Of a stretch of 64,000 bases of DNA, positions 6,571-63,005 are shown piece by piece (the stretch's first letter is position 1; each line of letters starts with the position of its first letter). The DNA comes from a virus. Both the position numbers and the translations under genes were made by a program. The DNA is taken from positions 26,936 through 90,935 of the IMG/VR virus record IMGVR_UViG_3300042868_008355. One strand, given 5' to 3'. The notes under the pieces were generated by a model, which was not told where the DNA came from, searched no databases, and saw only the letters and a program-made list of their open reading frames with translations.

Positions 6571-6575
6571 CAATT

Positions 6576-6650: not shown

Positions 6651-6651
6651 T

Positions 6652-6723: not shown

Positions 6724-6729
6724 CTATAT

Positions 6730-6803: not shown

Positions 6804-6808
6804 CAATA

Positions 6809-6896
6809 GGAAGGTTACCCAAGTTGGTGAAGGGGTCAGTTTGCTAAACTGATAGGTCAAGTAATTGGCGCGAGGGTTCGAGCCCCTCACCTTCCG
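6809..6896 (+). tRNA. tRNA-Ser(GCT)
   Basis: Acceptor GGAAGGT pairs with ACCTTCC. Stem CAGTT/AACTG holds loop TGCTA, anticodon GCT. It has a class II variable arm and T-loop TTCGAGC. It is the last gene of the array. Confidence 0.92.
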
Positions 6897-6902
6897 CAAA
6901 AG

Positions 6903-42676: not shown

Positions 42677-42876
42677 TTTCTTGATTGATATTCTTTAAGC
42701 ATGTTATTATATAATTCCTCAACTTTGTCCAAATATAATGTTGATTTTATTATAGTATCTTTAGTTAAGTCAAACTCTGTAGTTAGCTTATCCATAACCT
42801 CAATTAATTTTGAGTTTGTTTGGTCCTTTAATTCGGACTGTAATTTTAAAATACTTTCAAATTCTTCTTTTTTCAT
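42673..42876 (-). CDS. Small coiled-coil protein (67 aa)
   Basis: An almost fully helical, charged peptide (MKKEEFESILKLQSELKDQT ... LYLDKVEELYNNMLKEYQSR). The start at 42876 lies 1 nt after the preceding gene's stop region and is preferred over a longer frame that overlaps it. It is translationally coupled to the baseplate-like genes on both sides. It may be a small baseplate or tail chaperone component; no family recognised. Confidence 0.5.
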   Translation of the reverse strand: MKKEEFESILKLQSELKDQTNSKLIEVMDKLTTEFDLTKDTIIKSTLYLDKVEELYNNMLKEYQSRK

Positions 42877-42877
42877 A

Positions 42878-44974: not shown

Positions 44975-44975
44975 G

Positions 44976-45344
44976 TTACTTCATTTTGTACGATTCTTCA
45001 TCGTTTGAAACATCCTTGTCAATCAGATTTTGAATTAAGTCGTCATCCAAATCTGCAAGTGAAAAAGATTCGGTATTATTATTATTTGATTTTTCCCAAA
45101 TACTCGATTGTAGTTTAGATAAACTAATTTTCTTTTCAACACACTCGTTAACAATCTTTTGTTGTTTTTCAATAACAGGACCAATTGTCATCATGTCACC
45201 TGGGTCTTTTAACATAGATAACATTTTATTTTGAATTCTAATTGCAGTTTGTCTTTGTTCTACAAGTTCGTTATAGATTTCCTGCATTAAAGATAAAATA
45301 GAATCTTTAGTAAAATTAATTTCTTTGCGTTGAGGTCTTGGCAT
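44976..45344 (-). CDS. Small helical protein (122 aa)
   Basis: I do not recognise a family. It is predicted to be a helical hairpin (ILSLMQEIYNELVEQRQTAI; PVIEKQQKIVNECVEKKISL) with an acidic C terminus (ADLDDDLIQNLIDKD). It is the first gene of the leftward tail operon and starts 4 nt after a TATTTAT motif. A tail-assembly or baseplate role is inferred from context only. Confidence 0.5.
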   Translation of the reverse strand: MPRPQRKEINFTKDSILSLMQEIYNELVEQRQTAIRIQNKMLSMLKDPGDMMTIGPVIEKQQKIVNECVEKKISLSKLQSSIWEKSNNNNTESFSLADLDDDLIQNLIDKDVSNDEESYKMK

Positions 45345-45348
45345 ATAT

Positions 45349-45355
45349 ATAAATA
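45349..45355 (-). promoter_or_regulatory. Late-type motif TATTTAT (minus strand)
   Basis: It is 4 nt before the ATG at 45344, directly downstream of the late-sigma gene. Confidence 0.5.
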
Positions 45356-45359
45356 CTTT

Positions 45360-46109
45360 TTAATCAGTTTTCATTTTAGATTGGATTAAAATATATAATT
45401 TTTTAAACCTTTTAATTGAACTACGAATCTCTTTGGTACTTAAATTAGTCATTTCTCTTAATGAAAGTAAAATAACATTTTTATTAAATTTGTTATTGTC
45501 CGCACTTGAGAATATTGCCTCATAATTTTCAAATAAATCAATTAGGGCGTACCCTAATTTTTTTTCATTATCATTTAAATTTTCAGTTTCAATAAAATCT
45601 CGTAGTTCTCTTAAATATTGTGCAATGATTGCCGTTGTATCTACAACATCTTCATCAATACGATACATCATATCGGGTCTTTCTTCAATACTTTGAGACA
45701 TATCTTCATAAGATACTTTTCTGTTAATTTCTTTTTGGTCTTTAATTATTTGACCCATTAAATAATTTTTACAGATTGTACCAAAATACGAATATGCCTT
45801 TTTTTCTTTTGAAGGTTTGAACTTATCAACCTTTGTCATTAAGAATGAATGAGTATCACAATGGATTTCAGTAAAATCCATATCTTTCCGATATAACTTA
45901 TATCTTCGTATGATAGATGAAATCATCTTATCGAGAGGTCCTCGTAAGTATTCATTATATATTTTGTTCTTTTCTTCTGAGGTTTCGGCTAATAAAAAAC
46001 TTCTAACCGCATCCTCTTCTCTAACATCAAAATAATTTACATTTACCGTTTTTCTACCTCTTTTTTTGGATGAAACATCTTCTGTTGTTGCAGATAGAGT
46101 TTCTAACAT
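45360..46109 (-). CDS. gp55-like late sigma factor
   Basis: This 249-residue protein resembles T4 gp55, the minimal sigma factor that directs late transcription. The region-2-like core is visible: LDKMISSIIRRYKLYRKDMD, then KAYSYFGTICKNYLMGQIIK and DQKEINRKVSYEDM, where the aromatic/basic helix should bind core RNA polymerase and open the -10 region. A C-terminal helical part (LLSLREMTNLSTKEIRSSIK) looks like a region-4-type HTH, which T4 gp55 lacks; the protein is about 60 residues longer than gp55. It would be expected to read the TATTTAT motifs. It overlaps the downstream glycosyltransferase gene by 1 nt. Confidence 0.8.
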   Translation of the reverse strand: MLETLSATTEDVSSKKRGRKTVNVNYFDVREEDAVRSFLLAETSEEKNKIYNEYLRGPLDKMISSIIRRYKLYRKDMDFTEIHCDTHSFLMTKVDKFKPSKEKKAYSYFGTICKNYLMGQIIKDQKEINRKVSYEDMSQSIEERPDMMYRIDEDVVDTTAIIAQYLRELRDFIETENLNDNEKKLGYALIDLFENYEAIFSSADNNKFNKNVILLSLREMTNLSTKEIRSSIKRFKKLYILIQSKMKTD

Positions 46110-46915
46110 TATACATTGTCTGATTGATATTTTATGTTTCTATCATCAACAAAGAAATATTCTTTTTTTGCGGTTTGAACCCAAAATTTAACTTCGTCTT
46201 CTAACATTTGTTCTTCACCAAATTTATAATTCCAAAATATAGAACCTTCTCTCATGTTAGTGTGTTTGTAACCAAGTTTAGGTATTGTCATTATAGACAC
46301 CGAATTATAAGTCAATCTTAGCAAGAACTCATAAACAAATGTTAATTTAATTGATGATTTAAAACCTCCAAAATCTTCAATAACTGATTTTTTAATGACA
46401 CATCCAGCAGTTTGGAAATTTTGATAATCTTGTAATGTTTCGTTTGTTAAGAATCCCATTTCTTGTGTGAAATTTGCAGCAAAAGTTGCTTCATTTGTAA
46501 AACCTGCAAACATACCCTTTTCGTCAGTTTCAACAACTACAGGTAAAAACGCTTGTACGTTAGGATATGAGTCAACATATTTTTTAACATTTTTAAACCA
46601 AATAGAAGAGTATTCGTCATCAAATTCAAACAAAGAAATCCAAGTGCCTTTAGAGTTACTAATTCCATAGTTTACTTGTTCACAATAATTTGGGTCTTTA
46701 TCCCACAATAATTTAACAACATTTAAAGATTCAAAATCATAATTATTTAAAAAATTAACTAACGATTCTTCTGACGAATGAACGATAACTAACTCTTCAA
46801 TTTCAATTGATTGAGTTTTAATTGATGTGATAGCCTTTTCAAAATACTCATCAAAATTTCTTGCTTTTGACGATTTAATTGGTAATATAACTGATAATGA
46901 TAATTTAGTATTCAT
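46109..46915 (-). CDS. Family 2-type glycosyltransferase (GT-A)
   Basis: This 268-residue protein has a GT-A fold: an N-terminal strand LSVILPIKSS, donor-site segments and a DxD-like FEFDDEYSS, then a mid-domain with AGCVIKKSVIEDFGGF. It would transfer a sugar from a nucleotide-sugar donor; acceptor unknown. The start at 46915 is 1 nt after the upstream gene's stop; the longer frame overlaps it. It belongs to a block of transferases between tail and sugar-synthesis genes. Confidence 0.75.
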   Translation of the reverse strand: MNTKLSLSVILPIKSSKARNFDEYFEKAITSIKTQSIEIEELVIVHSSEESLVNFLNNYDFESLNVVKLLWDKDPNYCEQVNYGISNSKGTWISLFEFDDEYSSIWFKNVKKYVDSYPNVQAFLPVVVETDEKGMFAGFTNEATFAANFTQEMGFLTNETLQDYQNFQTAGCVIKKSVIEDFGGFKSSIKLTFVYEFLLRLTYNSVSIMTIPKLGYKHTNMREGSIFWNYKFGEEQMLEDEVKFWVQTAKKEYFFVDDRNIKYQSDNV

Positions 46916-46916
46916 A

Positions 46917-47969
46917 TTATTCTTCGGTTTTAGAAATTTGTTCTTCAAATGAATTTGCTCTTATGTTTAGATATTCTTCGAATAATGAAGTAACTGATGA
47001 GTCAAATTCTTGTTTATTTGTGTAGTTTTCAACTGTTTTTTTCATGTTATCGTAAAGTTCAGGTTTGATATTATCTTCTAACCAATTCTGAATGAAGTCT
47101 GCAATAAAATCACAAATCATATTTGGGTCACTAACCCAAACACCATTATCTTCATTCATCCACTCAGGTTGAGTATAAGGTACTTTACCAATAACAGGAA
47201 CACCTGATGCCATAGATTCTAATGGGAATGTACCAAACCCACTTTGTTCGTCCATCCAAACACTGACAAAACAATCACGTAAAGAATTTGAAAATTCTTT
47301 TTCTGAAAGACCTCTCAAATCTCTAAATGTGAACCATCTATATTGTGGGAATTTTAGATAAAAAGTTTTAATGATGTTAATTGTATCTTCCTGTTCTTTA
47401 GTGTGAACACCAATGATTGGCATTGGAGGTAATTCTTTTGGATAAAAACTGTCGGTAATTAATGGTTTAACAATATCAAAACTAGTTTGTCTCATCACGT
47501 TCTCAATATACTCTTGTTGTTTTTTTGATGTTGTTATACATTTAAAGAAGCCATATTGAGACCAACTTTGTCCTGGTTGTAATGTCTCAACAATGTGAGA
47601 ATAATTTTGAGTTAAAACAATTTTACCACAAGGTAAATTTTTAATCTGTTCCATGATAAATCCAAAAATTTCAGGTACAATAATGAAATCTTCTGGTGAA
47701 ATTTCCAAATTTTGACCTTCAATTGATTTATGAGGAATTGACATATATTCTTCATCCATCCAAGCTACAACTCCAGCATATTCATTTTTCTCGTGAAGAA
47801 TTATTGGATTAAATCCTGAATCTAAAAGAGATTTTGCCATTTGATAAATTAATCTAACAGAGGCTTTGGCGTTTCCTTTAGTGTCTTGTACTAAGAAATA
47901 AATTCTTGATTTCTTATTTCTTAGATTTTGAATTGATAGTTTTACTTTTTCGTTTAACGATGCGTCCAT
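46917..47969 (-). CDS. GT-B glycosyltransferase (350 aa)
   Basis: A GT-B-type en-zyme: the N-terminal Rossmann half has SRIYFLVQDTKGNAKASVRL and PIILHEKNEYAGVVAW. The C-terminal half has VSVWMDEQSGFGTFPLESMA-SGVPVIGKVPY, the acidic donor-binding motif of family 4-like transferases. Donor and acceptor are unknown. It is translated next to the GT-A gene, with 1 nt between them. Confidence 0.75.
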   Translation of the reverse strand: MDASLNEKVKLSIQNLRNKKSRIYFLVQDTKGNAKASVRLIYQMAKSLLDSGFNPIILHEKNEYAGVVAWMDEEYMSIPHKSIEGQNLEISPEDFIIVPEIFGFIMEQIKNLPCGKIVLTQNYSHIVETLQPGQSWSQYGFFKCITTSKKQQEYIENVMRQTSFDIVKPLITDSFYPKELPPMPIIGVHTKEQEDTINIIKTFYLKFPQYRWFTFRDLRGLSEKEFSNSLRDCFVSVWMDEQSGFGTFPLESMASGVPVIGKVPYTQPEWMNEDNGVWVSDPNMICDFIADFIQNWLEDNIKPELYDNMKKTVENYTNKQEFDSSVTSLFEEYLNIRANSFEEQISKTEE

Positions 47970-47970
47970 A

Positions 47971-48264
47971 TTAATAGTGATTTATAAGTTTTTTATTTAA
48001 TAAGCTATTGAAAGATAATCTAAATGGGATGCTGGTATTATTACTTGATTTCATACCTAATTTCTCATCTATTTCCTCATGTTCTGTTAAAATGGTATCC
48101 ATTAACATTTTAACCATTTCAAATTTTATTATATTAATTTTCATGTCAGTTGAACCTGAAAATTCGTCTTCTTCGACTTCCTCATCAGGTTTAATACTCA
48201 TGTCTAAATATTCTTCAATTTTATCCAAATCGAAATAGTAGTTTTCACCTAATACCTTAATCAT
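47971..48264 (-). CDS. Hypothetical protein (97 aa)
   Basis: I do not recognise a family. It starts IKVLGENYYFDLDKIEEYLD, continues with an acidic loop (DEEVEEDEFSGSTD) and helices (INIIKFEMVKMLMDTILTEH), and ends in a basic segment. The arrangement resembles small phage proteins encoded beside PhoH in T4-like genomes. It overlaps the upstream HAD-like gene by 8 nt. Confidence 0.55.
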   Translation of the reverse strand: MIKVLGENYYFDLDKIEEYLDMSIKPDEEVEEDEFSGSTDMKINIIKFEMVKMLMDTILTEHEEIDEKLGMKSSNNTSIPFRLSFNSLLNKKLINHY

Positions 48265-48853
48265 ATAGTTCTGTTATTTTTGTTTTTAAATCTTTTAAAG
48301 TGGTTATTGAATGTTCAATATTTATATCTGTATTATATAATGTCTCATATTTAATAACTCTTTTACCTTTTGGGTAATTTAATAATAGTTTAGGATTTGC
48401 CGTAAGTAAAACGTCTACGGAGTCCCAAAGTGAATTTATTGTAGATTCACTGTAAAATTTAACCGTCTCAACCAAACATCCAAATTTTGAAATGAAGAAT
48501 AAAGATGCTGGTTTTGATTTACCCATTTCATCCGAAACGATTAATATATCGTGATTATCCCTCAAGTCTAAGTAAAACTCATTAAAATCCATCATACTTG
48601 AATTTTCAACTGACCCTGCATGTCCAAAAATTTCCATAGTATGTTCTTTATATAAAAAATTATATAATTCATCATCGTCTTTAAATTTAAGGTGACTACT
48701 AATGTCTAATGTGGTTAAATCTGATATTACTTCGTATTCAGATTTTTCTTCATCTTCTTTAAATGGGTTTTCTAAATACCATTTTTCATATTCTTGTTGG
48801 ATTTTTTTAAGGGTGTCTCTCAAAACTCCATTTAATTCTATACCAATTCTCAT
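48257..48853 (-). CDS. HAD-like protein with altered nucleophile motif (198 aa)
   Basis: The opening MRIGIELNGVLRDTLKKIQQ lines up with HAD/5'-nucleotidase motif I (DxDGVLxD), but the nucleophilic Asp and the +2 Asp are Glu and Asn here. A later ILIVSDEMGKSKPASLFF could be motifs II and III. It is therefore likely a non-catalytic HAD-like protein or one with changed chemistry. The neighbour at 10501 keeps a normal DxD. It overlaps the PhoH gene by 4 nt. Confidence 0.6.
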   Translation of the reverse strand: MRIGIELNGVLRDTLKKIQQEYEKWYLENPFKEDEEKSEYEVISDLTTLDISSHLKFKDDDELYNFLYKEHTMEIFGHAGSVENSSMMDFNEFYLDLRDNHDILIVSDEMGKSKPASLFFISKFGCLVETVKFYSESTINSLWDSVDVLLTANPKLLLNYPKGKRVIKYETLYNTDINIEHSITTLKDLKTKITELYD

Positions 48854-49602
48854 TCTACTTCGTTATCGTATTTTTGTAATATTTTAGTGATTAAAGGATT
48901 TCTAACAATGTCTTTTTTATCTTTAAATTCAAAAGTTGAAATTACACTTGAATCTCTAAACTTTTCAATCGCATCCCATAAACCGCTATGAGTTTTGTTT
49001 TTGTAACGGTCCGACTGTTCAACGTCTCCTGAAATAAAAAATTTACTATTAAATCCAATTCTTGTTAATAAAAGTTTCATTTGACTTGGAGTTGCATTTT
49101 GACCCTCTTCAAAAATTAAAATAGAATTATCAATATTCATACCTCTCATGAATGCTAATGCAAAGACTTCAATCACTTCAAGTTCTTTTAATTTTTCTCT
49201 AGTTTCTTTTCCAATAATTTTATTTAACAAATAATAGGAAGGGAAAATATAAGGGTCTAATTTTTCTTCAACATTACCTGGTAAACTACCTAATTTTTCT
49301 TCCGCTTCAACTGCGGGTCTTACAATAATAATTTTTTCGTAAGGTGTGTTTGGGTCTGATAATAAATCAATTGCCGCTTTCATTGTGATATAACTTTTAC
49401 CAACACCTGCAGGTCCTGAACAAATTGTTACTTCGCTTGAAGTGAGAACATCATAATAATTTTTTTGTGTTTGAGTTAAAAACTTTTCTTTTGTTTTTCT
49501 TTTTATGATTGAACAAATGATTTCTTTTTTGCTTCTTGGGTTTTTTTCTTCATGTACCAAAGGTGTTGGTGTTGGAGATTTTCTACTTGGTTTTGTTGCC
49601 AT
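48850..49602 (-). CDS. phoH: PhoH-family ATPase
   Basis: This 250-residue P-loop protein is of the PhoH type. Walker A is GPAGVGKS, followed by the family strands IIIVRPAVEAEEKLGSLPGN and EEKLDPYIFPSYYLLNKIIG. Walker B is ILIFEEGQNATPSQMKLLLT (Glu in place of the usual Asp) and sensor GDVEQSDR. PhoH proteins are helicase-like ATPases common in phages; their role may concern RNA metabolism. The N-terminal 25 residues are basic and Pro-rich. It overlaps the gmd gene by 1 nt. Confidence 0.9.
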   Translation of the reverse strand: MATKPSRKSPTPTPLVHEEKNPRSKKEIICSIIKRKTKEKFLTQTQKNYYDVLTSSEVTICSGPAGVGKSYITMKAAIDLLSDPNTPYEKIIIVRPAVEAEEKLGSLPGNVEEKLDPYIFPSYYLLNKIIGKETREKLKELEVIEVFALAFMRGMNIDNSILIFEEGQNATPSQMKLLLTRIGFNSKFFISGDVEQSDRYKNKTHSGLWDAIEKFRDSSVISTFEFKDKKDIVRNPLITKILQKYDNEVE

Positions 49603-50585
49603 TATTTATTTTTAGTGTAATAGTTTATCCAATATTCTAACATCTCGTCGAGCATTGTTTCAAAGGTATAATTAGGTGACCATCCTGTTATTGATTTTAA
49701 TTTTGAAGAATCTCCTTTTAAATTATGAAGTTCTTCGGGTCTCAAAAACTTCTCATCAGATTTAACATATTTTTTATAATCTAATCCAAATTTAGAAAAA
49801 GTGTATTCACATAAGTCTTGAACTGAATGTGAAATACCTGTAGAACATACATAATCATCGGACTTATCTTGTTGAAGTATCATCCACATGGCTTCTACGT
49901 AATCTTTAGCATGACCCCAATCTCTTGTTGCGTCTAAATTACCAAGTTTAAGTTCATTAGATAATCCTAAATGTATTTTTACAACTTCTTTACAAACTTT
50001 ATTTGTTACGAAATTTGTACCTCTTCTTGGTGATTCGTGATTAAACAAAATACCATTAGAAATAAACATACCGTAAGAGTTTCTATAGTTTCTTGCGATG
50101 TTATAACTATATACTTTAGCACATCCGTATGGAGATACTGGATTCATCGGGGTTGTTTCTCTTTGATATCCATCTTTATCAATACAATTTCCAAACATTT
50201 CGGAAGACGATGCTTGGTATATTTTAATTGATGGTTTAATCAGTTTAACGGCCTCTAATAAGTTAAGAGTTCCAAGACCAGTGACGTTTGCTGTGTATAT
50301 AGGTTGGTCAAATGAAATTCTAACATGCGATTGTGCGGCTAAATTGTAAATCTCATCAGGATTAACTTTTTGAATAACGGAAATTAACGAAGACAAATCA
50401 GTTAAATCTGCATAGTGTAAATTGATTTGAGTATAGATACTATCCAATCTTGCGGTTTGATTTTCAGCGACTGAATTTCTTTTCAATGTACCGTGAACTT
50501 CATAATCTTTCCCAATTAAAAATTCCGCCAGATACGAACCATCTTGTCCATTTATTCCTGTAATAAGTGCAATTTTTTTTGTCAT
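49602..50585 (-). CDS. gmd: GDP-mannose 4,6-dehydratase
   Basis: This 327-residue extended SDR converts GDP-mannose to GDP-4-keto-6-deoxymannose. It shows the NAD(P) motif TGINGQDGSYLAEFL, NLAAQSHVRISFDQP, catalytic Ser/Thr in YQASSSEMFG, the YxxxK motif in SPYGCAKVYSYN, NHESPRRGTNFVTNK and RDWGHAKDYVEAMW, all diagnostic of Gmd. The product is the shared precursor of GDP-fucose and GDP-colitose, fitting the fcl/colC-like and colD-like genes nearby. Confidence 0.95.
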   Translation of the reverse strand: MTKKIALITGINGQDGSYLAEFLIGKDYEVHGTLKRNSVAENQTARLDSIYTQINLHYADLTDLSSLISVIQKVNPDEIYNLAAQSHVRISFDQPIYTANVTGLGTLNLLEAVKLIKPSIKIYQASSSEMFGNCIDKDGYQRETTPMNPVSPYGCAKVYSYNIARNYRNSYGMFISNGILFNHESPRRGTNFVTNKVCKEVVKIHLGLSNELKLGNLDATRDWGHAKDYVEAMWMILQQDKSDDYVCSTGISHSVQDLCEYTFSKFGLDYKKYVKSDEKFLRPEELHNLKGDSSKLKSITGWSPNYTFETMLDEMLEYWINYYTKNK

Positions 50586-50586: not shown

Positions 50587-51372
50587 TTAATTTAATCTTT
50601 TATAGTTTAAATTTGAGTTTGATAATATTGAGAATGTTGATAAATTAGATTTTGTACAATATAATTTTTTTGTCATCCCTAATGTATACGCACCAAACAC
50701 AATTTCTTTTATGTGGTTTTTAGTTGATTCTTCATCTTTATTCATTTTAAAAAATGGGTTACTATCCAACTCTGAAGTACTAAATTCGTCAAAGGTTATT
50801 AATCTATTACCATATCTTTGTTTGAATTTATTTAAATCGTCTACATTGTCAGACATTAAAAATATGTTTTCAAATTCTTCTTGTTCAATTGAACTAAAAA
50901 TATTATCCAAAGGTATTGTTGGAATATGATGTAGTATCATATCTGTTGCTCTTCTATGGAATCCAATAGTATTTGTAAAATCAATTTGAGAATGTCTTGA
51001 TGAGAATAGATTTTTCATTTCATCGTTTAACACCAAATGCTCTTTAATGATTTGTTCACAAGTTTCAAATTTTTCTTTGGTGAAAGTTGTTTCATCATAT
51101 GGGTCAAAACGAGTCAGTGTATCCAACCATTCAATGTTGGAATAACTATTAAAGTTTAATTTATAATCTTCAGTATCTTGAATAAAACAAACATCAAAAA
51201 TGTTTCCTTTACCGTATCCATATATGTCGAATAAATCAAAATAAACTTTAAATTTTTCGTTTGGATGATTTAACTTTGCATTATAAATGTGAATAATCCC
51301 TTCAGTAATGTATGAAAAATATCCTCTCTGATGAATATCTTTGCCTCTTGCTGGTTTTGTAAATCTCAACAT
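50587..51372 (-). CDS. Putative fucosyltransferase-like glycosyltransferase (261 aa)
   Basis: The centre carries NTIGFHRRATDMILHHIPTI, resembling the H-x-R-R-x-D donor-binding motif of O-/alpha-1,6-fucosyltransferase-type GT-B enzymes, followed by an IFLMSDNVDDLNKF strand as in that superfamily. The C-terminal GAYTLGMTKKLYCTKSNLST fits the family's end. It lies between the gmd and colD-like genes, so a GDP-6-deoxyhexose donor is plausible. The exact linkage is unknown. Confidence 0.65.
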   Translation of the reverse strand: MLRFTKPARGKDIHQRGYFSYITEGIIHIYNAKLNHPNEKFKVYFDLFDIYGYGKGNIFDVCFIQDTEDYKLNFNSYSNIEWLDTLTRFDPYDETTFTKEKFETCEQIIKEHLVLNDEMKNLFSSRHSQIDFTNTIGFHRRATDMILHHIPTIPLDNIFSSIEQEEFENIFLMSDNVDDLNKFKQRYGNRLITFDEFSTSELDSNPFFKMNKDEESTKNHIKEIVFGAYTLGMTKKLYCTKSNLSTFSILSNSNLNYKRLN

Positions 51373-51375
51373 ATT

Positions 51376-52536
51376 TTAATATTTTAGTAAGATATCACAA
51401 ACTCTATCGATATCTTCTTTTGTCATCTTATCATGGTTTGGAACATAAACTCCTCGTTCATCGATTATAGAACAATTAGGTAATTTATTTTCACCATACA
51501 ATTTTTTATAAAATGGTTGTGTTCCCATAGACCCTGAAATTAAAGGTCTACAGGCAATGTTATTTTCTTCTAACTCCTTTATTAATCTTTGTTTGTCTTC
51601 AGGTGTTTTAGTAATAACAGGAATTGCAAAATTTGATGTAAACTCATCATTAAATGTTTTTGGAAACCAAATTTTACCCTCCAACCTTGATTTATAATAT
51701 AGGAAATTTTGGAATCGATTACTAATCATTCCGTCAACTTTTAACAATTGTTGGATTCCAAGTTGTGCTTGTAAATCTGTACTTCTTAAATTGAACCCTG
51801 GTATGTAAAATGTGTAAAGTGCTGAGAAATCCGAAATTTCCCATTCTTTTCTTAATTCTTGTTGTTTTGACTCAGGTAAATCTCTATCCCATCCATGACT
51901 TCTAAGTTGTAATAATGTATGGTAAATCTCCTCATCATTTGTTGTAATAACACCACCCTCAATTGTGGACATCGTATGACCAAAATATGTTGAAAATGAA
52001 GACATCAATCCAAAGTTACCTAACTTAGTTCCTTTAAATTTAGTCCCTTGAGATTCGCAATTATCCTCAAGTAAAATCACATCATATTTTTGGCATAACT
52101 CAACTATTGAATCCATGTCAGGTGACAATCCTAATACCGAAACTAATAGTAAAACTGATGGTTGTTCTGTTTTAAACACCTCTTCTAAATGTTTTAAATC
52201 AATTGATAAATTATCTAAATTACAATCAATTAATAAAGGTTTCATATCAAACTGAAGTACTGGTGATAAGTCAGTTGCCCAACATAACGCAGGAACACAA
52301 ACTTTATTATTCTTCATTTTGTTAAGTACTCTTAGAGCGTATAACATAAGTAAATTCGCGGATGAACCAGAATTCACAAATATTGAATATTTGGACCCTA
52401 ACCATTCACACCATTTTGTTTCAAACTCAATTGTTTTAGGTCCTTTAGTTAATCTTGGATATTCCTTTAACCATTGAATTAAATTGTCAATATCTTGATT
52501 GTCAATTGTATCTTGAATTAAATCTATTTTTTTCAT
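51376..52536 (-). CDS. ColD-like PLP sugar 3-dehydratase (DegT fold)
   Basis: A 386-residue DegT/DnrJ/EryC1-fold protein. The usual PLP-binding lysine is replaced: SSFSTYFGHTMSTIEGGVIT has His where aminotransferases have Lys. The same change defines GDP-4-keto-6-deoxymannose 3-dehydratase (ColD), and the flanking LLEDNCESQGTKFKGTKLGN, FGLM and LRSHGWDRDLP resemble ColD. It would remove the C3 hydroxyl of the Gmd product en route to a 3,6-dideoxyhexose. It lies directly beside an fcl/colC-type epimerase-reductase (4-nt overlap). Confidence 0.8.
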   Translation of the reverse strand: MKKIDLIQDTIDNQDIDNLIQWLKEYPRLTKGPKTIEFETKWCEWLGSKYSIFVNSGSSANLLMLYALRVLNKMKNNKVCVPALCWATDLSPVLQFDMKPLLIDCNLDNLSIDLKHLEEVFKTEQPSVLLLVSVLGLSPDMDSIVELCQKYDVILLEDNCESQGTKFKGTKLGNFGLMSSFSTYFGHTMSTIEGGVITTNDEEIYHTLLQLRSHGWDRDLPESKQQELRKEWEISDFSALYTFYIPGFNLRSTDLQAQLGIQQLLKVDGMISNRFQNFLYYKSRLEGKIWFPKTFNDEFTSNFAIPVITKTPEDKQRLIKELEENNIACRPLISGSMGTQPFYKKLYGENKLPNCSIIDERGVYVPNHDKMTKEDIDRVCDILLKY

Positions 52537-53453
52537 TTTCTAGCGTTTTCGTAATTGTTTATAAACCAATCGATAGTTTCATTAATACCCTCTTCAATTG
52601 GCTTAAACTCAAAATCTTTAATATCTGACGCCGCTGGTTTTCTAAATTGACCTCTTGGTTTAGTTTCGTCAAACACTAAATCGTTATCATTAAATCCAAA
52701 TTTTTTGGTGATTATATTTGCAACCTCCATCACAGAAACTTCGGTCTCATCTATCATCATACAATGTTTTTCAGAATTCCAATTAGTTAAAGACCACACA
52801 ATTAATTTTGCCATATCTTCTGAATAAACAAACTGTCTTAATGGTGAACCATCCCCCCAAATAACAAATTTTTCATTGTTTTGTTTTGCTAAATATGCTC
52901 TGTGAATCATACCAGGGATTAAATGACTATCTTCTAAATTAAAATTGTCATAAGGTCCATAAAGATTTGTTGGTACTACTGAGTACCAATTTTTCTTTAA
53001 AACATCCCTAAAGATTTGTGTTTCATATCCTGATAATCTTTTAGCATATGAGTACCCATAATTTGATGGGTGTGGAGCTCCTTTATCAATTTGGTCTGAG
53101 GTTAATGGATAGACAATATTCTCATGTGGGAAAATGCAAGTTGATAATATATTTACAAAATTATCAATTTGAAGAATTGAACACGCTTTAATTACATTAC
53201 TATTAATAATGTAGTTGTCATTAAAAAATGTTTGGTTATTGTTCATGTTCGCATTAACACCACCAACTTTAGCTGCGGTATGAATAACGGTATCCACACC
53301 TTCATTTAATACTTTATCTTGAAAGTATTTAAATGTTTCTTCATAATTTGTTAAATCAACATCTTTTCTTGTGTGGTATACGTGACCATCACCTAAAACT
53401 TTTTTTAATGCTCTTCCTAATAATCCATTTGAGCCTGTAACTAATATTTTCAT
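52533..53453 (-). CDS. GDP-fucose synthase / ColC-like epimerase-reductase
   Basis: A 306-residue SDR of the Fcl family: TGSNGLLGRALKKVLG for NADP, HTAAKVGGVNANMNN, the Cys-His pair region ILSTCIFPHENIVYPLTSDQ, the YxxxK motif in SNYGYSYAKRLSGY, and PTNLYGPYDNFNLEDSHLIP. Fcl makes GDP-L-fucose from the Gmd product; the close relative ColC makes GDP-L-colitose from the ColD product. With a colD-like gene next door, either product is possible. The genes overlap by 4 nt on both sides. Confidence 0.88.
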   Translation of the reverse strand: MKILVTGSNGLLGRALKKVLGDGHVYHTRKDVDLTNYEETFKYFQDKVLNEGVDTVIHTAAKVGGVNANMNNNQTFFNDNYIINSNVIKACSILQIDNFVNILSTCIFPHENIVYPLTSDQIDKGAPHPSNYGYSYAKRLSGYETQIFRDVLKKNWYSVVPTNLYGPYDNFNLEDSHLIPGMIHRAYLAKQNNEKFVIWGDGSPLRQFVYSEDMAKLIVWSLTNWNSEKHCMMIDETEVSVMEVANIITKKFGFNDNDLVFDETKPRGQFRKPAASDIKDFEFKPIEEGINETIDWFINNYENARK

Positions 53454-54232
53454 AATTTAATCCATTTATCACAATATAAGTCATTAGTGTTCAAATGTGA
53501 ATTGGAAATACCAAACCATTTTGACGGTATAATGACTTGTTTATTTTCATTTTGATTCATCCATGCCCCCCACCAACTAAATGTAGAATTTGCCAATATG
53601 TTATTATTACACATCGACATCAAATACAAATCTTCGTAATCTAAATTGTCCGACACAAATGTTTTATTATTTAAGAAACTAAAATTTTCTTCACACCATT
53701 TAATGTCGTCAGAGAATATTAAGAAATGTTTATCTTCACCAATAAGATTAATTGCTTTTTGGTAATATTCTATTGGTTGGATTGGGTGGTGATTTTGTAA
53801 ACCTAAATAATCTCCACGTCTGACGTGAATCGAACAAGTATCAAGTTTTAATAGTTCACCGTATTTGTTAATTAATTTTTGATTTGTTTCATCATCAATT
53901 TTAAACAATTCCAATATTTCGTTTCTATAATCCATGAAATATTTTTCACTTTGAAAGTGACCATATAATTTAACGTTACCGTCAATTTGAGGTAGCGGAG
54001 TATATGAGAATCCCGATTCACCTAATGGAGTAAAATCAGTAACACCATTAATGAACTTAACGTTTCTAAAAATATTTGATGTGTAGTTTGAATATGGTTT
54101 ATGAGGTACCATTGAATCGGACACATCACATAACAATTCTTTATTATCTCTTAGACATAGATAATAAGCCGTGGATATCTGGAATAGATAATTTCCTAAT
54201 CCACCCATTAATTTTGTTGATACAAAACTCAT
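53450..54232 (-). CDS. Family 11 (alpha-1,2-fucosyl type) glycosyltransferase
   Basis: This 260-residue enzyme has the GT11 motifs: MGGLGNYLFQISTAYYL at the N terminus, SIHVRRGDYLG for GDP-sugar binding, and NNNILANSTFSWWGAWMNQN near the C terminus. GT11 enzymes transfer L-fucose, or colitose in some O-antigen systems, from GDP donors. Its overlap with the fcl/colC gene supports use of that product. Confidence 0.9.
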   Translation of the reverse strand: MSFVSTKLMGGLGNYLFQISTAYYLCLRDNKELLCDVSDSMVPHKPYSNYTSNIFRNVKFINGVTDFTPLGESGFSYTPLPQIDGNVKLYGHFQSEKYFMDYRNEILELFKIDDETNQKLINKYGELLKLDTCSIHVRRGDYLGLQNHHPIQPIEYYQKAINLIGEDKHFLIFSDDIKWCEENFSFLNNKTFVSDNLDYEDLYLMSMCNNNILANSTFSWWGAWMNQNENKQVIIPSKWFGISNSHLNTNDLYCDKWIKL

Positions 54233-54849
54233 TAATATAATCTTTTAATATATCCATTTGGATTGAAAGTGGCGTTTTTACCAAAAAAATCACACCATTT
54301 TCTATCAATTTGGAAATTAGGGTTATTGGGTAAAAATTCACCTATTGCTCTTAGTGGACCACCACTATATTGTTGTTCAAGACCAATATGGTTTAATGCC
54401 CCGTCTTCAATAATAAAATAAGAATTAACAGAAACCAAATCTTTAAATTTATTCATAGCTATTTTTACATGACTATATAGGTGAGACCCATCATCAATAA
54501 CCAATATGTTATTGTAACCTTCGGCATTTTTTAAATCATAACCTTCAAAACCTCCTAAAAATCTTTTAATTCTTGGGTTATTGACAATTAATGGGTGCAT
54601 TGGGTATTCCATGATATCCATGGTGTGAATCATACCATTACCTAATAAATCTAACATATCTGCCATGTAGAGAGCCGATGCCCCATGGTTAGTGCCAATT
54701 TCAATAATTAAATCGGGTTTAACCTCATTAATAATCATTTGGTATAGTAGATAATCAAAAGGGTCTTTAATTAGTTTAATACCACGATAAGATACTTTGT
54801 GGTGACCCTCACTAATTGATTCGATTGAGAAAGAAATTTCGTTATCCAT
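54232..54849 (-). CDS. CmcI-like SAM methyltransferase
   Basis: A 205-residue protein of the cephalosporin-hydroxylase/CmcI family, which are mostly sugar or small-molecule O-methyltransferases. It shows PDLIIEIGTNHGASALYMAD (SAM-binding), IHTMDIM, NNILVIDDGSHLYSHVKIAM and YFIIEDGALNH, which keep the metal-coordinating acidic residues. It may methylate a glycan residue made by this cluster. The start at 54849 avoids overlap with the upstream gene. Confidence 0.8.
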   Translation of the reverse strand: MDNEISFSIESISEGHHKVSYRGIKLIKDPFDYLLYQMIINEVKPDLIIEIGTNHGASALYMADMLDLLGNGMIHTMDIMEYPMHPLIVNNPRIKRFLGGFEGYDLKNAEGYNNILVIDDGSHLYSHVKIAMNKFKDLVSVNSYFIIEDGALNHIGLEQQYSGGPLRAIGEFLPNNPNFQIDRKWCDFFGKNATFNPNGYIKRLY

Positions 54850-54850
54850 A

Positions 54851-55654
54851 TTAAGAATTTTTAACGAATTCAATAACTTCATCTCTTAATGTTTCTCTGA
54901 ACTTAGCGTATTTGATACTCCTTTCGTAATTTTCTTTAACGTAAGGTGACATTTCATTGTATGTTTCAGGGGTAATTGAATTACAAACATTAACGATATC
55001 TTCTAATGTATTAACTATGAACATACCTTTAACATCAAAAAAGTCCTCAATATTTGGACATCCTAAATAAATTGGAATTGTGTTGGTTTGAAAACAATCA
55101 ACAAGTTTTTCACTGAAGTAATTTGGTTGACATACATTTTCAATTGCGATATGATATTGAGAATAGAATAATTCATTTTTTCTATCTCCATCTTGCATAA
55201 CTCTATTAATTGTAGGTTCTCCTGTGTATGGATTATTCCTACTATTGAATAGATGTAATGGTACTGAAGTAATTTGGTCTGTTACTGTTGATAATTCTTG
55301 TCTTACAATTTGATTTGGAGTTAATCTTTTACCCCCAACAATTGAAGTGACACAATATTCTTTTTCTGAAGTTAAATCAAAATCTAAAATCCAAGACATT
55401 CCGTGTGGAAATAATCTCGCGTTTGGACAATTATCTAAAACTTCTTTATGCCAAGTTAAAATCAAATCAAACTCCTCATGTCTACCAATTACAATATCTC
55501 TTAATCCTGAGATTTCATTTGGTTCAACAGACCAAAGAACTCTTAAACATTCTTTAGGTCCTGATGGGAACGTGTCTACGTATAACTCACATGGTTTATC
55601 TGTTTGAATATCTACTCGAATATCCCAATTTGAAATTTTGTTTACTGTATGCAT
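54851..55654 (-). CDS. Family 10 (alpha-1,3/4-fucosyl type) glycosyltransferase
   Basis: This 267-residue protein carries the GT10 C-terminal signature NYFSEKLVDCFQTNTIPIYL-GCPNIEDFF, with FHIAIEN-like YHIAIENVCQP just before it. The N-terminal half (ECLRVLWSVEPNEISGLRDI, LILTWHKEVLDNCPNARLFP) fits the acceptor domain. GT10 uses GDP-fucose. It is the third fucosyltransferase-type gene in the cluster. Confidence 0.88.
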   Translation of the reverse strand: MHTVNKISNWDIRVDIQTDKPCELYVDTFPSGPKECLRVLWSVEPNEISGLRDIVIGRHEEFDLILTWHKEVLDNCPNARLFPHGMSWILDFDLTSEKEYCVTSIVGGKRLTPNQIVRQELSTVTDQITSVPLHLFNSRNNPYTGEPTINRVMQDGDRKNELFYSQYHIAIENVCQPNYFSEKLVDCFQTNTIPIYLGCPNIEDFFDVKGMFIVNTLEDIVNVCNSITPETYNEMSPYVKENYERSIKYAKFRETLRDEVIEFVKNS

Positions 55655-55657
55655 ATT

Positions 55658-56299
55658 TTATTTTTTAACTAAAAGTTTAGATGGGATTCCAACATATACT
55701 TCAGGTTCATCCCCCAAAATGTCTTTAACTACAGCAGTTTGAGCACCAAAAGTTTTATTTGACCCGATGTTCAATCTATCTCTAACAATACATCCTGTTC
55801 CAAATTCATTAGAAGAACCCATTGTTATTTGACCTGAAATATGAACACCAGGATTTGTGGTGCAATAGTCGCCAATAATTGTATCGTGACCAACCGTGGT
55901 ATTTAAGTTTAGTGTTACGTAGTCACCAAACGTGACATTAGAAGTAACCACACAACCTGGTGAAACAATACCGCCACGTCCTAAATTTTTTTTATCCATT
56001 AATACAATTGCTGACGGGTCAACAATTGTTTCAGATGGTACTAACCCTGATGATAGTGCCTTTGTAACTAAAATCTTTTTTATTTTTGGACTACCAACGG
56101 CAACTATAAATTTATAGTTTTCTTTAAATGACCAATCTTTAACCACAGGAAATACTTCACCATCAATATCAAATGATGTTTGACCATCATCTAAATCATT
56201 AACAAAAATGAAATTAGTTATTTCAGGTTTTGCTCTTTTTACATAATAGTAAAATTCTTTTGCAAGACCTGCAGCACCTAAAATTACAATACTACTCAT
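55658..56299 (-). CDS. NeuD/PglD-type sugar O/N-acyltransferase
   Basis: A 213-residue left-handed beta-helix acetyltransferase. The N-terminal Rossmann-like part (SIVILGAAGLAKEFYYYVKR) precedes hexapeptide repeats (GGIVSPGCVVTSNVTFGDYV-TLNLNTTVGHDTIIGDYC), with a likely catalytic His in TVGHDT, and the end VYVGIPSKLLVKK. PglD/NeuD-type enzymes acetylate amino sugars or sialic acids. The adjacent DegT aminotransferase (4-nt overlap) is the natural partner for making an N-acetylated sugar. Confidence 0.88.
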   Translation of the reverse strand: MSSIVILGAAGLAKEFYYYVKRAKPEITNFIFVNDLDDGQTSFDIDGEVFPVVKDWSFKENYKFIVAVGSPKIKKILVTKALSSGLVPSETIVDPSAIVLMDKKNLGRGGIVSPGCVVTSNVTFGDYVTLNLNTTVGHDTIIGDYCTTNPGVHISGQITMGSSNEFGTGCIVRDRLNIGSNKTFGAQTAVVKDILGDEPEVYVGIPSKLLVKK

Positions 56300-57456
56300 C
56301 CTTCTATTTGTTGGTTAACTTTTATCACTTGTTCGATTACATAATCAATATCCTCATCGGTTAAATTCATATGTAATGGTAATGTTATTAATTTTTCAGA
56401 TATTGTTAAAGAATTTGGACATGTCCCAAATCCATGTTTGTACATTTTATAATTGGTATTGTCTCTATAATGAACTCCAGGATAAACTCCATTTGAGTTT
56501 AATAATTCCATGAATTTATTTCGTTGATTTACAACAATTTGAAATAAATGTCTTGACGATAACACACAATCGTTATGTGTCTTTATGGTTTGAATTCCAT
56601 GTTTGGTTAATTCGTTTTCATATTTTTCACAGATTTCTCGTCTTCTGTCATTATCTTCGTCAAGGTATTTTAAACCAACCAATGCCATTGATGCCATTAT
56701 TGAGTTTCCGTGGTATTTGTAACCAACATCAACTAAGTCGTATTCCCATTTATAATTTCCTTTATCGTTACTTCTTTGGTATGTGTCTTTATCAATACCT
56801 AACCAAGATAGTTTTCTTACTAAAGTATCGTAGTCCTCATTTGCAAAACAAATCATACCCGAATCTGCGGTTGGTAAGTTCTTAACAGCTTGGAAACTAA
56901 ATACGGTTACATCGGCACCATGACCGACATGTTCAACTTCACCTGTTGATGGGGTTTTTGCAAATGTACCTGACATGTGAGCCGCGTCTAAAATTAACTT
57001 TAACTTATGTTTTTTACATAATTCGATAATTTTATAAAGTTCACCAGTGTTACCACCAATACCAATAAACAAAACTGCTTTTGTTTTTTTAGTTATTTTT
57101 GATTCTACTGATGCTGGGTCTAAACACAAATATTCATCCACATCTGCGAATACAGGTTTTAAATTTTCATACATTATTGCATGATTTGATGATACAAATG
57201 TTAATGGACTTGTAATGATTTCATCGTCATCGGACCATTTATTTGCATCCTTCAATATTTTCACCGCCAAATGAAGACCTGAAGTATTTGAGTTTATAAA
57301 ATGAGCATGTGGTAATCCTGTATAAGATTTCCATTCATTTTCAATTTCAACGGTTTTAAATCCTAAACCAGTCCATCCCTTGTCTAAACAAGTTGACATG
57401 TGTTCAAAGATTTCTTCGTTTCTAAATTTTGGGATAAATAATTGTATGTTTTTCAT
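56296..57456 (-). CDS. DegT/DnrJ-type nucleotide-sugar aminotransferase
   Basis: This 386-residue PLP enzyme keeps its catalytic lysine (VFSFQAVKNLPTADSGMICF), unlike the ColD-like paralogue at 51376. Other motifs: SNTSGLHLAVKIL, ITSPLTFVSSNHAIMYENLK, ILDAAHMSGT and the C-terminal PGVHYRDNTNY. It would aminate a keto-sugar nucleotide, and the acetyltransferase next to it would acylate the product. Some relatives are sensory/biosynthetic for UDP-linked sugars; the donor is unknown. Confidence 0.88.
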   Translation of the reverse strand: MKNIQLFIPKFRNEEIFEHMSTCLDKGWTGLGFKTVEIENEWKSYTGLPHAHFINSNTSGLHLAVKILKDANKWSDDDEIITSPLTFVSSNHAIMYENLKPVFADVDEYLCLDPASVESKITKKTKAVLFIGIGGNTGELYKIIELCKKHKLKLILDAAHMSGTFAKTPSTGEVEHVGHGADVTVFSFQAVKNLPTADSGMICFANEDYDTLVRKLSWLGIDKDTYQRSNDKGNYKWEYDLVDVGYKYHGNSIMASMALVGLKYLDEDNDRRREICEKYENELTKHGIQTIKTHNDCVLSSRHLFQIVVNQRNKFMELLNSNGVYPGVHYRDNTNYKMYKHGFGTCPNSLTISEKLITLPLHMNLTDEDIDYVIEQVIKVNQQIEG

Positions 57457-58169
57457 ATTAAAAATTTTTTATTACAATAATCGACATCTTTATAATGCCA
57501 TTCACTATGTTTTGATGATAATTGACTGGTTAAAGTGTGGTCACCAATCCCAACCGCAATCCTATAATCTTTTAATACTCCAGGATAACCATATGTTATA
57601 AACATACGATACCAAAGTTCACAATCAATCATATATAAAACTTCAGGGTCAAAATATTCATCACGAGGAATTAACCCAACACTTGGACACCCGACAAAAT
57701 TAATACCTTTAATTAAGTGTTTACCATCACCTTCAATTCTTGGAATAATAGGGTTTGTCCAACCACCATTACCATAATCGTAGTGAATACATCCACTAAT
57801 AACCCATTTATTACCTTCATCTAACAAATCAACCATTAATTGAATAGAATCTTCACCAACCATAAAGTCGTCTAAATTCATTAATTTGATATAATCCCCA
57901 GTTGAATTTTTAATTGCATTGTTTGTGTTATGTGCGGGCCATCCAATATCCTTAGTATTTCTTAAATACATTATATTATCCAATCCCAAACCTTTAATGT
58001 AATTTTCAATATCATCGTCTTTTGAATGGTCGGACACAACTATTTCTATATTTTTATAGGTTTGAGAAAGAATCGATTGGATGTTCTTATCAATAAATTC
58101 AACACCTCTACCATTTGCTTCGTATGATGGAATACATACTGAAATTTTTGGATTAAAGTTTTCAGACAT
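57453..58169 (-). CDS. Family 2 glycosyltransferase
   Basis: A 238-residue GT-A enzyme: ISVCIPSYEANGRGVEFIDK, the NIEIVVSDHSKDDDI strand, the catalytic-metal region YIKLMNLDDFMVGED, and GCPSVGLIPRDEYFDPEVLY. It overlaps neighbours by 4 and 8 nt. It probably extends a glycan from a UDP- or GDP-sugar donor. Confidence 0.88.
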   Translation of the reverse strand: MSENFNPKISVCIPSYEANGRGVEFIDKNIQSILSQTYKNIEIVVSDHSKDDDIENYIKGLGLDNIMYLRNTKDIGWPAHNTNNAIKNSTGDYIKLMNLDDFMVGEDSIQLMVDLLDEGNKWVISGCIHYDYGNGGWTNPIIPRIEGDGKHLIKGINFVGCPSVGLIPRDEYFDPEVLYMIDCELWYRMFITYGYPGVLKDYRIAVGIGDHTLTSQLSSKHSEWHYKDVDYCNKKFLI

Positions 58170-58881
58170 TTTGTAATAAATTATATTGTGGTTTATTTCT
58201 GATTATGTTAACGGTTGATGACACTTTACCCATATTAACTTTGTGGTCATTTAATGGGTTAGATTCATTATAGATATATAAGACATCTGGAATATATTTA
58301 AAGTGACTTTTTCCCGACATTTCTAACATTGGAAACATAAATGATAAATCACCCGCAACACTCCAGTATTTTCCTGAACCATCTTTTAAATCTTCTTGAT
58401 TTATTTTTTTCCATAACCAAGACTTCCAAGTTCTCATGTGAGATAATGTGAAAGTTTGGTTTCGAACATTTGTGAAATTTCTTGGGGGATTTGCAAACCC
58501 TGGTCTACCGTCATGGTATTTAAATGAACCACTTGTCATCCAAACATTTTCATCTTTATATGTTTCATTAATAAAGGTTAAAACATTTGAATTTGGTAAC
58601 CAATCATCACCATCAATCTCAACACAAATTTCATTATCGGGAATATCTAATCCACGAATTACTTGGTCGTAATTTCCTGGTTGATACATTTTTTCTTTAT
58701 TTTCAATTAGGATAAATCTATCATCACCTGATATTGTTTTTTTAATTATGTCTACCGTATTATCTGTAGATATGTCATCAGTTATATAACATTTGAAATC
58801 TTTAAATCTTTGAGACATAATACTCAATAAAGATTTTTCGACAAAGTTTTCACAATTATATGTTGTCGTTAATACTATCAT
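58162..58881 (-). CDS. Family 2 glycosyltransferase
   Basis: A 239-residue GT-A enzyme with MIVLTTTYNCENFVEKSLLS, CYITDDISTDNTVDIIKK and the DxD-type ICVEIDGDDWLPNSNVLTFI. The C-terminal region (WKKINQEDLKDGSGKYWSVA, then GDLSFMFPMLE) matches phage and lake-bacterial GT2 proteins. It is coupled to the downstream GT2 gene by an 8-nt overlap. Confidence 0.88.
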   Translation of the reverse strand: MIVLTTTYNCENFVEKSLLSIMSQRFKDFKCYITDDISTDNTVDIIKKTISGDDRFILIENKEKMYQPGNYDQVIRGLDIPDNEICVEIDGDDWLPNSNVLTFINETYKDENVWMTSGSFKYHDGRPGFANPPRNFTNVRNQTFTLSHMRTWKSWLWKKINQEDLKDGSGKYWSVAGDLSFMFPMLEMSGKSHFKYIPDVLYIYNESNPLNDHKVNMGKVSSTVNIIRNKPQYNLLQNV

Positions 58882-60038
58882 TATAAATTAATTAATATTC
58901 CTTCAGGGGTTGTACCTGGTTTATAAAATTTTAATCTTCCGTTATATGATTCGGATAATGTGTTTAATTTATTTGCAACTTCAGGAATTTCAATAACATT
59001 AACACTATAACCATCATTTAACAATTCTATACACAATTGAAATTGTTGGGATTCCTCAACGATATTAGAACCTTTTTTATACGTTATGTGGTTCATAACA
59101 AATGGAATTTCTTTTGTTGGATTTTTTTGAATGTAATGTTCTTTAATGAACAAAATATGAGATTGGTTGAATGTGTTAATACATGAAATTAAATCAGTAT
59201 TTACTTCAACACTTTCAGCAAAATGTTTTAATGCTTTATTATCTCCATTGATTGTTGGACCACCAAAACCAAATCCGTAATTCATGTGTTTTTTACCAAT
59301 TCCTGAATCACCACCAATTGCAGTTAATACCATATTAACCTCATTCTCAATACCTGATTTGGTAATAATTTCACCTAGCATATTAGCGTAACTAATTTTT
59401 GCGGATAAAAAAGAATTGATTCCAATCTTTGTTATCTCTGCAGCCTTTGAAGACATCGTATAAACATTAACAAGAATTTTTTTAACTTTAGTATGTAATT
59501 GAATTAATTCATTTGTTAATTCTTGATACTCTGTACCAATTAAAACCATTTCATGATTTTCAATGTCTTTTACAATCTCACCTTCATTTGTGAAGAATGG
59601 ATTGTATGCGACCTGAATATTAAACATGTTTAATCTTTGTTGTATTTGGTCCACTTCACCAGGATTTGTTGTAGAACATATCACCACTTTCTTATTATAA
59701 AGTTGAACATCTTGTGATGACAAAGTATAAAATTCTGAAATAACGTCAAATACTTTTGCAGTGTCGTAGTTACCATCAATATTGGATGGGGTAGGTGAGA
59801 AAATAAAAATGATATCAGAATTCTTGATTACATCGGTATTATTTGTAGTCGCACTAAACTTATTAGTGTCAAATAACATAGATTGAATTAATGGTTCATT
59901 TGTGATACAAATCTTTTGATTAAGATTAAAAACATAATCTTCATTACTATTTGATACTAAGACTTCATAACCTTTTTTTTCGCACAATAAACCAAATGAT
60001 AAACCAATCACATCAACACCAATTAAACCTAATTTCAT
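58881..60038 (-). CDS. UDP-glucose/GDP-mannose dehydrogenase-like protein lacking catalytic Cys
   Basis: This 385-residue protein follows the nucleotide-sugar dehydrogenase plan: NAD-binding MKLGLIGVDVIGLSFGLLCE, IIFIFSPTPSNIDGNYDTAK, VVICSTTNPGEVDQIQQRL, and a helix with TKIGINSFLSAKISYANMLG. In the active-site loop, where the family has GFGGxCxPKD, it reads GFGFGGPTINGDNKAL, with Thr for the catalytic Cys and changed Pro/Lys. The four-electron oxidation should therefore fail. It may do a two-electron reaction or be regulatory. Confidence 0.75.
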   Translation of the reverse strand: MKLGLIGVDVIGLSFGLLCEKKGYEVLVSNSNEDYVFNLNQKICITNEPLIQSMLFDTNKFSATTNNTDVIKNSDIIFIFSPTPSNIDGNYDTAKVFDVISEFYTLSSQDVQLYNKKVVICSTTNPGEVDQIQQRLNMFNIQVAYNPFFTNEGEIVKDIENHEMVLIGTEYQELTNELIQLHTKVKKILVNVYTMSSKAAEITKIGINSFLSAKISYANMLGEIITKSGIENEVNMVLTAIGGDSGIGKKHMNYGFGFGGPTINGDNKALKHFAESVEVNTDLISCINTFNQSHILFIKEHYIQKNPTKEIPFVMNHITYKKGSNIVEESQQFQLCIELLNDGYSVNVIEIPEVANKLNTLSESYNGRLKFYKPGTTPEGILINL

Positions 60039-61672: not shown

Positions 61673-61682
61673 TTTTTAATTT

Positions 61683-62303
61683 TTAAATCCCTGTACTACC
61701 AAATCCGTTATCACCTCTATCTTTTTCATTAAGGGTATCAACTTTTTCAAATCTAACATATTTCCCGTTTATTACAGGACATAATACTGCTTGACCGACT
61801 TTCATACCTTTAGGTATCATCACTGTGTAATTATTTGTGTTAAACACAATTACTTGTATTTCACCTGTATATCCTTGGTCAACAGTCCCTGGTGTGTTAA
61901 GAACTGTTAATCCTTGTTTAATGGCTAAACCACTTTTAGGTCTGACTTGTATTTCATAACCTTCATCAAAAGAAACTTTAATTCCTGTTGGTACTAAAAT
62001 TCTACCAAACGGACCAATTGTTAAATCTTGTGTTGAGTGTAAATCAAATCCTGAGTCTGATTCATATGCGTATTTTGGAAATACTGCATCATCATGAACT
62101 AATTCAACTTCAATTGTTTTAGTTCTTGCGTTTCTGTAAATCTCTTCTTCCAAGTCATCAAATCCAATACCCAAAATATCTTCAAGTTCTTTTTGATAAT
62201 CTTCATCAGGTTCAATACCCGATTCTAATTTTATTTTTTCAAATTGTTTTAAAATTTCCTCGTAAGCTGTTGGGTCAAATCCCAATTCATTTGAATTTTC
62301 CAT
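61683..62303 (-). CDS. dut: dUTPase with N-terminal extension
   Basis: This 206-residue trimeric-type dUTP pyrophosphatase carries all five motifs: motif 1 ESDSGFDLHS, motif 2 VRPKSGLA, motif 3 LNTPGTVDQGYTGEIQVIVF, motif 4 GMKVGQAVL, motif 5 DRGDNGFGSTG. It hydrolyses dUTP to dUMP, protecting DNA from uracil. About 60 extra acidic residues (QFEKIKLESGIEPDEDYQKE) precede the enzyme domain and could bind a partner. It is coupled to the exonuclease gene by a 1-nt overlap. Confidence 0.95.
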   Translation of the reverse strand: MENSNELGFDPTAYEEILKQFEKIKLESGIEPDEDYQKELEDILGIGFDDLEEEIYRNARTKTIEVELVHDDAVFPKYAYESDSGFDLHSTQDLTIGPFGRILVPTGIKVSFDEGYEIQVRPKSGLAIKQGLTVLNTPGTVDQGYTGEIQVIVFNTNNYTVMIPKGMKVGQAVLCPVINGKYVRFEKVDTLNEKDRGDNGFGSTGI

Positions 62304-63004: not shown

Positions 63005-63005
63005 G

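Follow-up and report, generated by a model that had tools for sequence, protein, structure and literature searches.

The window analysed here, a 64,000-nucleotide stretch of viral DNA, comprises bases 26936-90935 of a 90,935-base IMG/VR record that is possibly incomplete and ends with the window. Because it encodes a terminase, a portal protein, a T4-type major head protein and 25 tRNAs, we assigned it to a tailed, T4-like phage; the tRNA genes form an array at 112-6897 on the plus strand. The capsid and terminase proteins were nearest, at low identity, to those of a metagenomic 484-kb phage, Microcystis phage Mel-JY01 and Flavobacterium immuto phages.

A cluster of sugar genes occupies the minus strand (Table 1), with a GT11 glycosyltransferase gene upstream, an fcl-like gene overlapping a colD-like gene, and gmd downstream. 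The gmd product scored 401 bits against TIGR01472 (cut-off 415; next family 105) and matched PF16363 with an E value of 3e-121. Family searches returned no annotation for the protein encoded between colD and gmd, which is a probable GT23/NodZ-like fucosyltransferase, as judged from a profile match to the alpha-1,6-fucosyltransferase FUT8 in the PDB (E 3.6e-6) and from the NodZ Pfam family being matched by 2/12 of its homologues. The protein at 54851-55654 matched an alpha-1,3-fucosyltransferase in the same kind of search (E 1e-16), and PF00852 was found in 16/16 of its homologues, so that the three flanking transferases (GT11, GT10 and GT23-like) all come from fucosyltransferase-type families. 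None of the window's cluster proteins was identified as ManB, ManC, Wzx or Wzy.

Two further observations were made nearby on the same strand. A Lys-type DegT and a NeuD/PglD-type acetyltransferase (55658-57456) form a second amino-sugar module that is present only in some relatives. A nucleotide-sugar dehydrogenase of the UDP-glucose dehydrogenase type (58881-60038) lies just beyond a segment that is missing in the related contig L202.

Table 1. Sugar genes and related features of the window
Feature	Position	Strand	Basis
GDP-mannose 4,6-dehydratase (gmd), first committed step	49602..50585	-	TIGR01472, PF16363
GT23/NodZ-like (FUT8-type) glycosyltransferase, probable; between colD and gmd	50587..51372	-	profile vs PDB
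Exchangeable sugar cassette (GT23-like, colD, fcl, GT11, MT, GT10, PglD, DegT2, GT2), apparent	50587..58833	-	nucleotide identity vs L227, L202
ColD-type PMP-dependent nucleotide-sugar 3-dehydratase (386 aa), predicted	51376..52536	-	PDB matches, tree, fold, dN/dS
Active-site loop FGHTMSTIEGG, residues 185-195	51952..51984	-	His187 codon 51976-51978, PLP-Lys position
Fcl/GMER-type SDR (306 aa), proposed C5-epimerase/C4-reductase	52533..53453	-	4-nt overlap with colD
GT11 glycosyltransferase (fucosyl/colitosyltransferase-type)	53450..54232	-	PF01531, E 5e-27
Rhamnosyl-O-methyltransferase/CmcI-type methyltransferase	54232..54882	-	PF04989, E 1.9e-31
GT10 fucosyltransferase-type protein	54851..55654	-	profile vs PDB; PF00852
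Second DegT (DegT2), Lys-type, closest to ArnB	56296..57456	-	Lys at PLP position; 146 bits vs ArnB

The colD-like gene encodes a His-type enzyme without the iron-sulfur motif

The colD-like ORF starts with ATG and is intact. The earlier note had read its loop as carrying His in place of the PLP lysine, and our alignments agreed: His187 aligns to His188 of E. coli O55 ColD at the PLP-lysine position and is kept in 96/96 viral and 80/80 cellular relatives, and Lys occupies this position in every Lys-type DegT protein aligned, including the window's own DegT2. The viral relatives comprised 17 loci from a first scan and 80 loci kept later from at least 588 confirmed candidates; the cellular set was 80 loci from bacterial and archaeal genomes. 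Since the patterns used in the first scan lay outside the active site (one of the two later patterns included the His), the universal His, present in 16/16 first-scan loci covering the active site, is not only a selection effect.

Other residues of the ColD active site were retained as well. The equivalents of D159, S183, E194, G195, H215, G216, W217, R219, N248, R250, R331 and P332 were found in 96/96 viral homologues and that of W88 in 95/96, and RfbH-type and Lys-type proteins deviate at several of these positions. Directly behind the catalytic His, the clade of the window protein has Thr, whereas a second His stands there in all 80 cellular relatives, most viral relatives and the aligned RfbH-type proteins. 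How ColD works and what its His does in catalysis have been reviewed (PMC8987622), as has the four-cysteine [2Fe-2S] motif that E1 and SpnQ possess and ColD lacks (PMC8987622). The alignment did not reveal the four-Cys Fe-S region of RfbH-type proteins in the window protein, which has no Cys from residue 160 to residue 329; in RfbH-type proteins the cysteines lie at about 249-263.

The family assignment was supported by structure searches and phylogeny. A PDB search with the window protein returned ColD (2gms) first with 224 bits, followed by E1 (115) and perosamine synthase (113). The AlphaFold2 model (pLDDT 96) had ColD as all of its top 12 PDB fold matches (TM about 0.90), with PseC, perosamine synthase and E1 behind them. 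In a quick tree for which only SH-aLRT support was computed, the His enzymes split from the Lys aminotransferases with support 100 and RfbH/E1-type enzymes formed a clade of their own (98); the window protein fell on the ColD side, within a viral clade of the ColD-like group (97), and E. coli ColD grouped with a Roseovarius protein in a separate subclade. The likeness to ColD proposed in the earlier note was thus borne out, also by the phylogeny that the note had named as a check. An RfbH/E1 identity was rejected, given the missing Fe-S cysteines and the separate clade; NCBIfam gave no match above any curated cut-off, the score against NF011936 (RfbH/E1) being 198 bits for a cut-off of 423.

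Pfam places the protein in the DegT aminotransferase family and phage homologues are annotated 'aminotransferase', as would be expected if it were an ordinary, perosamine-synthase-like aminotransferase or an inactive relic. The invariant His for Lys and the position on the other side of the tree argue against the former; dN/dS against relatives was 0.07-0.09 where computable, indicating that the gene is maintained, and with the intact ORF this speaks against a relic, so that we consider this the least probable of the readings weighed here. By its reaction type, the gene product is very probably a ColD-type, iron-sulfur-free, PMP-dependent dehydratase.

ColD-like enzymes in other phages and in cells

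The ColD-type enzyme is not confined to this phage but widespread in environmental phages: at least 588 contigs of IMG/VR carry relatives, as do the cyanophages S-CAM7 and ACG-2014f. Several other findings concern these relatives. First, four phage loci carry a second His-type 3-dehydratase that scores as RfbH/E1-like (L006, 5827-7122; L003, 19478-20779; L239, 5888-7195; L252, 9579-10886), an assignment checked for L006 and L003 by clade and Fe-S-like cysteines, which suggests that CDP-3,6-dideoxyhexose-like routes occur in phages too. Second, a 2.6-kb phage-labelled record ('Salmonella phage S.Kent 1-2-1', OR851175.1) carries an RfbH-type O-antigen gene beside other sugar-nucleotide genes and looks like host DNA. 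Lastly, in four Pelagibacteraceae loci (L052, L053, L056 and L060) the ColD-like gene directly adjoins a weaker DegT homologue, which in L052, the locus checked for this, is of Lys type, and gmd and fcl are mostly missing from the vicinity. Given this arrangement, the product of this cellular subclade may be another sugar.

The Fcl-like partner and the predicted product

The earlier note had grouped gmd with ColD-like, Fcl/ColC-like and GT11 genes. All four genes are present, but the third is of another type than ColC. A PDB search with the Fcl-like protein gave human GDP-L-fucose synthase as the best match (241 bits; E. coli Fcl 130), and in the Fcl tree the ColC orthologues formed a fully supported clade (100) excluding the window protein, which groups with human TSTA3-type proteins. 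We therefore rejected its assignment to ColC by phylogeny, and since the partner is GMER/TSTA3-type the exact sugar is not fixed by it. Within its clade S104, C106, Y134, K138 and H177 are invariant; these correspond to the epimerase-reductase residues of Fcl/ColC, with roles as in E. coli Fcl, and Cys106 and His177 match the epimerase residues of the latter. The presence of colD switches 9 times on the Fcl tree, indicating that this type of Fcl operates whether or not ColD is present. In phages that lack colD it presumably makes GDP-fucose, one example being L202, in which fcl and gmd are direct neighbours; it may do so in the window phage as well or instead.

On these grounds the following route is proposed. 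The phage Gmd would convert host GDP-mannose to GDP-4-keto-6-deoxymannose. The ColD-like enzyme, its PMP formed from PLP and glutamate, would bind the 4-keto sugar as a Schiff base; His187 would take a proton from PMP, the C3 hydroxyl would leave and hydrolysis would yield GDP-4-keto-3,6-dideoxymannose. The adjacent Fcl/GMER-type enzyme would then epimerise C5 and reduce C4 in the manner of ColC, yielding GDP-L-colitose (3-deoxy-L-fucose), and at least one of the GT11, GT10 and GT23-like transferases would attach the sugar to an acceptor. Sequence, fold and neighbours point to a predicted 3-dehydratase feeding a GDP-3,6-dideoxyhexose, the kind of route the earlier note had raised as a possibility. 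Judged as a whole, from dehydratase and partner through to transfer by the neighbouring transferases, this route is in our estimate probable. GDP-L-colitose is the simplest product given the chemistry of ColD and ColC (PMC8987622) and, with GT10 and GT23/NodZ-like neighbours that are also fucosyltransferase-type, our best guess; we favour it as the most likely product with reasonable confidence.

Three other products were weighed. The 3-dehydratase may be real and its product D-configured, or with another outcome at C4 through a different reductase, while the Fcl-like enzyme makes GDP-L-fucose in parallel. Against this stand the 4-nt overlap of the fcl-like gene and colD, shared by the window with its near relatives, the three fucosyltransferase-type genes nearby, the invariant Cys106 and His177 that match the epimerase residues of E. 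coli Fcl, and the fact that no GDP-sugar C4-reductase besides the Fcl-like enzyme was found near gmd. It is in keeping with a GMER-type enzyme repeatedly found without colD, and with the GMER-type pair of chlorovirus PBCV-1, which makes GDP-L-fucose (PMC4691112). We regard such a product as unlikely.

Alternatively, DegT2 could aminate the product of the ColD-like enzyme and the PglD/NeuD-type protein acetylate it, giving a GDP-4-acetamido-3,4,6-trideoxy sugar of the 3-deoxyperosamine type. Both genes share the cassette with colD, and in PDB 3dr7 GDP-3-deoxyperosamine is bound to a GDP-perosamine synthase; however, DegT2 is nearer to ArnB (146 bits) than to GDP-perosamine synthase (100 bits), and several ColD-positive relatives have no DegT2 orthologue (e.g. 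L195, L201, L190, L193 and L231, at 21-24% identity). Because many ColD-positive relatives are without it, DegT2 is disfavoured as the next step, and amination appears very unlikely.

A heptose substrate would likewise change the product. GDP-6-deoxy-4-keto-heptose is the substrate of Campylobacter jejuni C3-dehydratases whose identity to E. coli ColD is 62-67% (PMC10440746), so the substrate cannot be read from sequence alone, and a GDP-heptose could be turned into a 3,6-dideoxyheptose as in C. jejuni HS:5 and HS:11. The linked dehydratase scores as a GDP-mannose 4,6-dehydratase and searches with the cluster proteins identified nothing for heptose synthesis, which makes this highly improbable for the window phage. 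For GDP-L-colitose, the product we prefer, the most plausible acceptors would be virion proteins or the host envelope, considering the phage setting, the cytoplasmic-type transferases and that the cluster proteins examined included no identified flippase or polymerase.

Gene neighbourhoods and cassette exchange

Around the 96 viral colD loci, which are partly redundant and in many cases truncated, gmd was found within 8 kb in 74, an fcl-like gene in 72 and both in 60, with fcl-like immediately adjacent in 50. The corresponding numbers for the 80 cellular loci were 32, 44 and 26, with 20 immediately adjacent. A viral scan seeded with fcl, and so not selected for colD, recovered a strong ColD-like gene at 53/80 loci and gmd at 69/80. 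The raw association of colD with GT11 (both 31, colD only 7, GT11 only 2, neither 12) was not significant once phylogeny was controlled by independent pairs.

Comparison with two related contigs delimited the exchangeable block. Between the window and L227, nucleotide identity is 82-88% across 50,587-58,833 and about 70% in the flanks, with gmd at or outside the border of the block. L202 is collinear on both sides (81% identity at 42,597-50,578 and 84% at 58,899-64,000), and the ColD/GT block is mostly absent from it; its fcl is only 71% identical. From this contrast of block and flanks, the segment is an apparent recombination unit that seems to move between related phages, like bacterial O-antigen gene sets. 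A broader proposal, that a wide set of environmental tailed phages, with O-antigen-like cassettes recombining between otherwise collinear genomes, makes GDP-colitose or related 3,6-dideoxyhexoses for the surface of the virion or the infected cell and so has switchable surface 'serotypes', is tentative, and we hold it rather less likely than otherwise. The swapping of cassettes makes it possible to test directly whether phages diversify their own or host surface glycans as bacteria vary O-antigens.

Comparison with known systems

The closest characterised enzyme is ColD of E. coli O55 (PDB 2gms, 2r0t, 3b8x, 3gr9). The window protein shares with it the His for Lys, the cofactor residues, the lack of an Fe-S motif, the fold (TM about 0.90), an overlapping fcl/colC gene upstream and linked gmd and GT11 genes, but is 33% identical, belongs to another subclade, has HT for HH and is encoded by a phage. 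The O55 colitose locus, taken from strain CB9615, has the same four functions, the same fcl/colC-colD order and the same 4-nt overlap (of colC and colD), and it likewise includes gmd and a GT11 gene; the window's Gmd, Fcl-like and GT11 proteins are 46%, 30% and 28% identical to their O55 counterparts. The window cluster differs in having no identified manB/manC, wzx or wzy, a GMER-type Fcl, and extra GT10, GT23-like and methyltransferase genes. RfbH/E1 (CDP-4-keto-6-deoxyglucose 3-dehydratase) likewise has His for Lys and belongs to a C3-deoxygenating family; it differs in carrying an Fe-S cluster and needing a reductase, whereas the window protein is without the Cys motif, sits in a separate clade and is linked to a 4,6-dehydratase of the GDP-mannose type.

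Colitose is a rare sugar known from bacterial O-antigens, and some viruses are known to synthesise GDP-fucose or GDP-rhamnose. A virus-encoded GDP-fucose pathway has been described for chloroviruses (PMC4691112), and gmd and fcl for cyanophage S-SCSM1 (PMC9602691). PBCV-1 resembles the window phage in encoding gmd and a GMER-type enzyme and differs in that no C3-dehydratase step is described for its GDP-L-fucose pathway (PMC4691112). In the titles and abstracts searched, whose coverage was incomplete and which are weak evidence of novelty, no phage pathway to colitose or another dideoxyhexose was found. If the proposed route is right, colitose-type sugars are also made by phages, and public annotations of these enzymes as aminotransferases or CDP-sugar dehydrases are misleading: the cyanophage His-type enzymes are annotated 'aminotransferase' or, in S-CAM7 GenBank records, 'putative CDP-4-keto-6-deoxy-D-glucose-3-dehydrase'. 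Cyanophages S-CAM7 and ACG-2014f have the same gene set (gmd, fcl, the gene of a His-type enzyme, GT11) close to tail-fibre genes, but identity is about 35%, the His enzymes fall in another ColD subclade and the Fcl is E. coli-type. Since both enzymes lie in different subclades, such pathways have probably been gained by phages on more than one occasion. Relatives in culture, S-CAM7 for example, put the surface-glycan idea within experimental reach.
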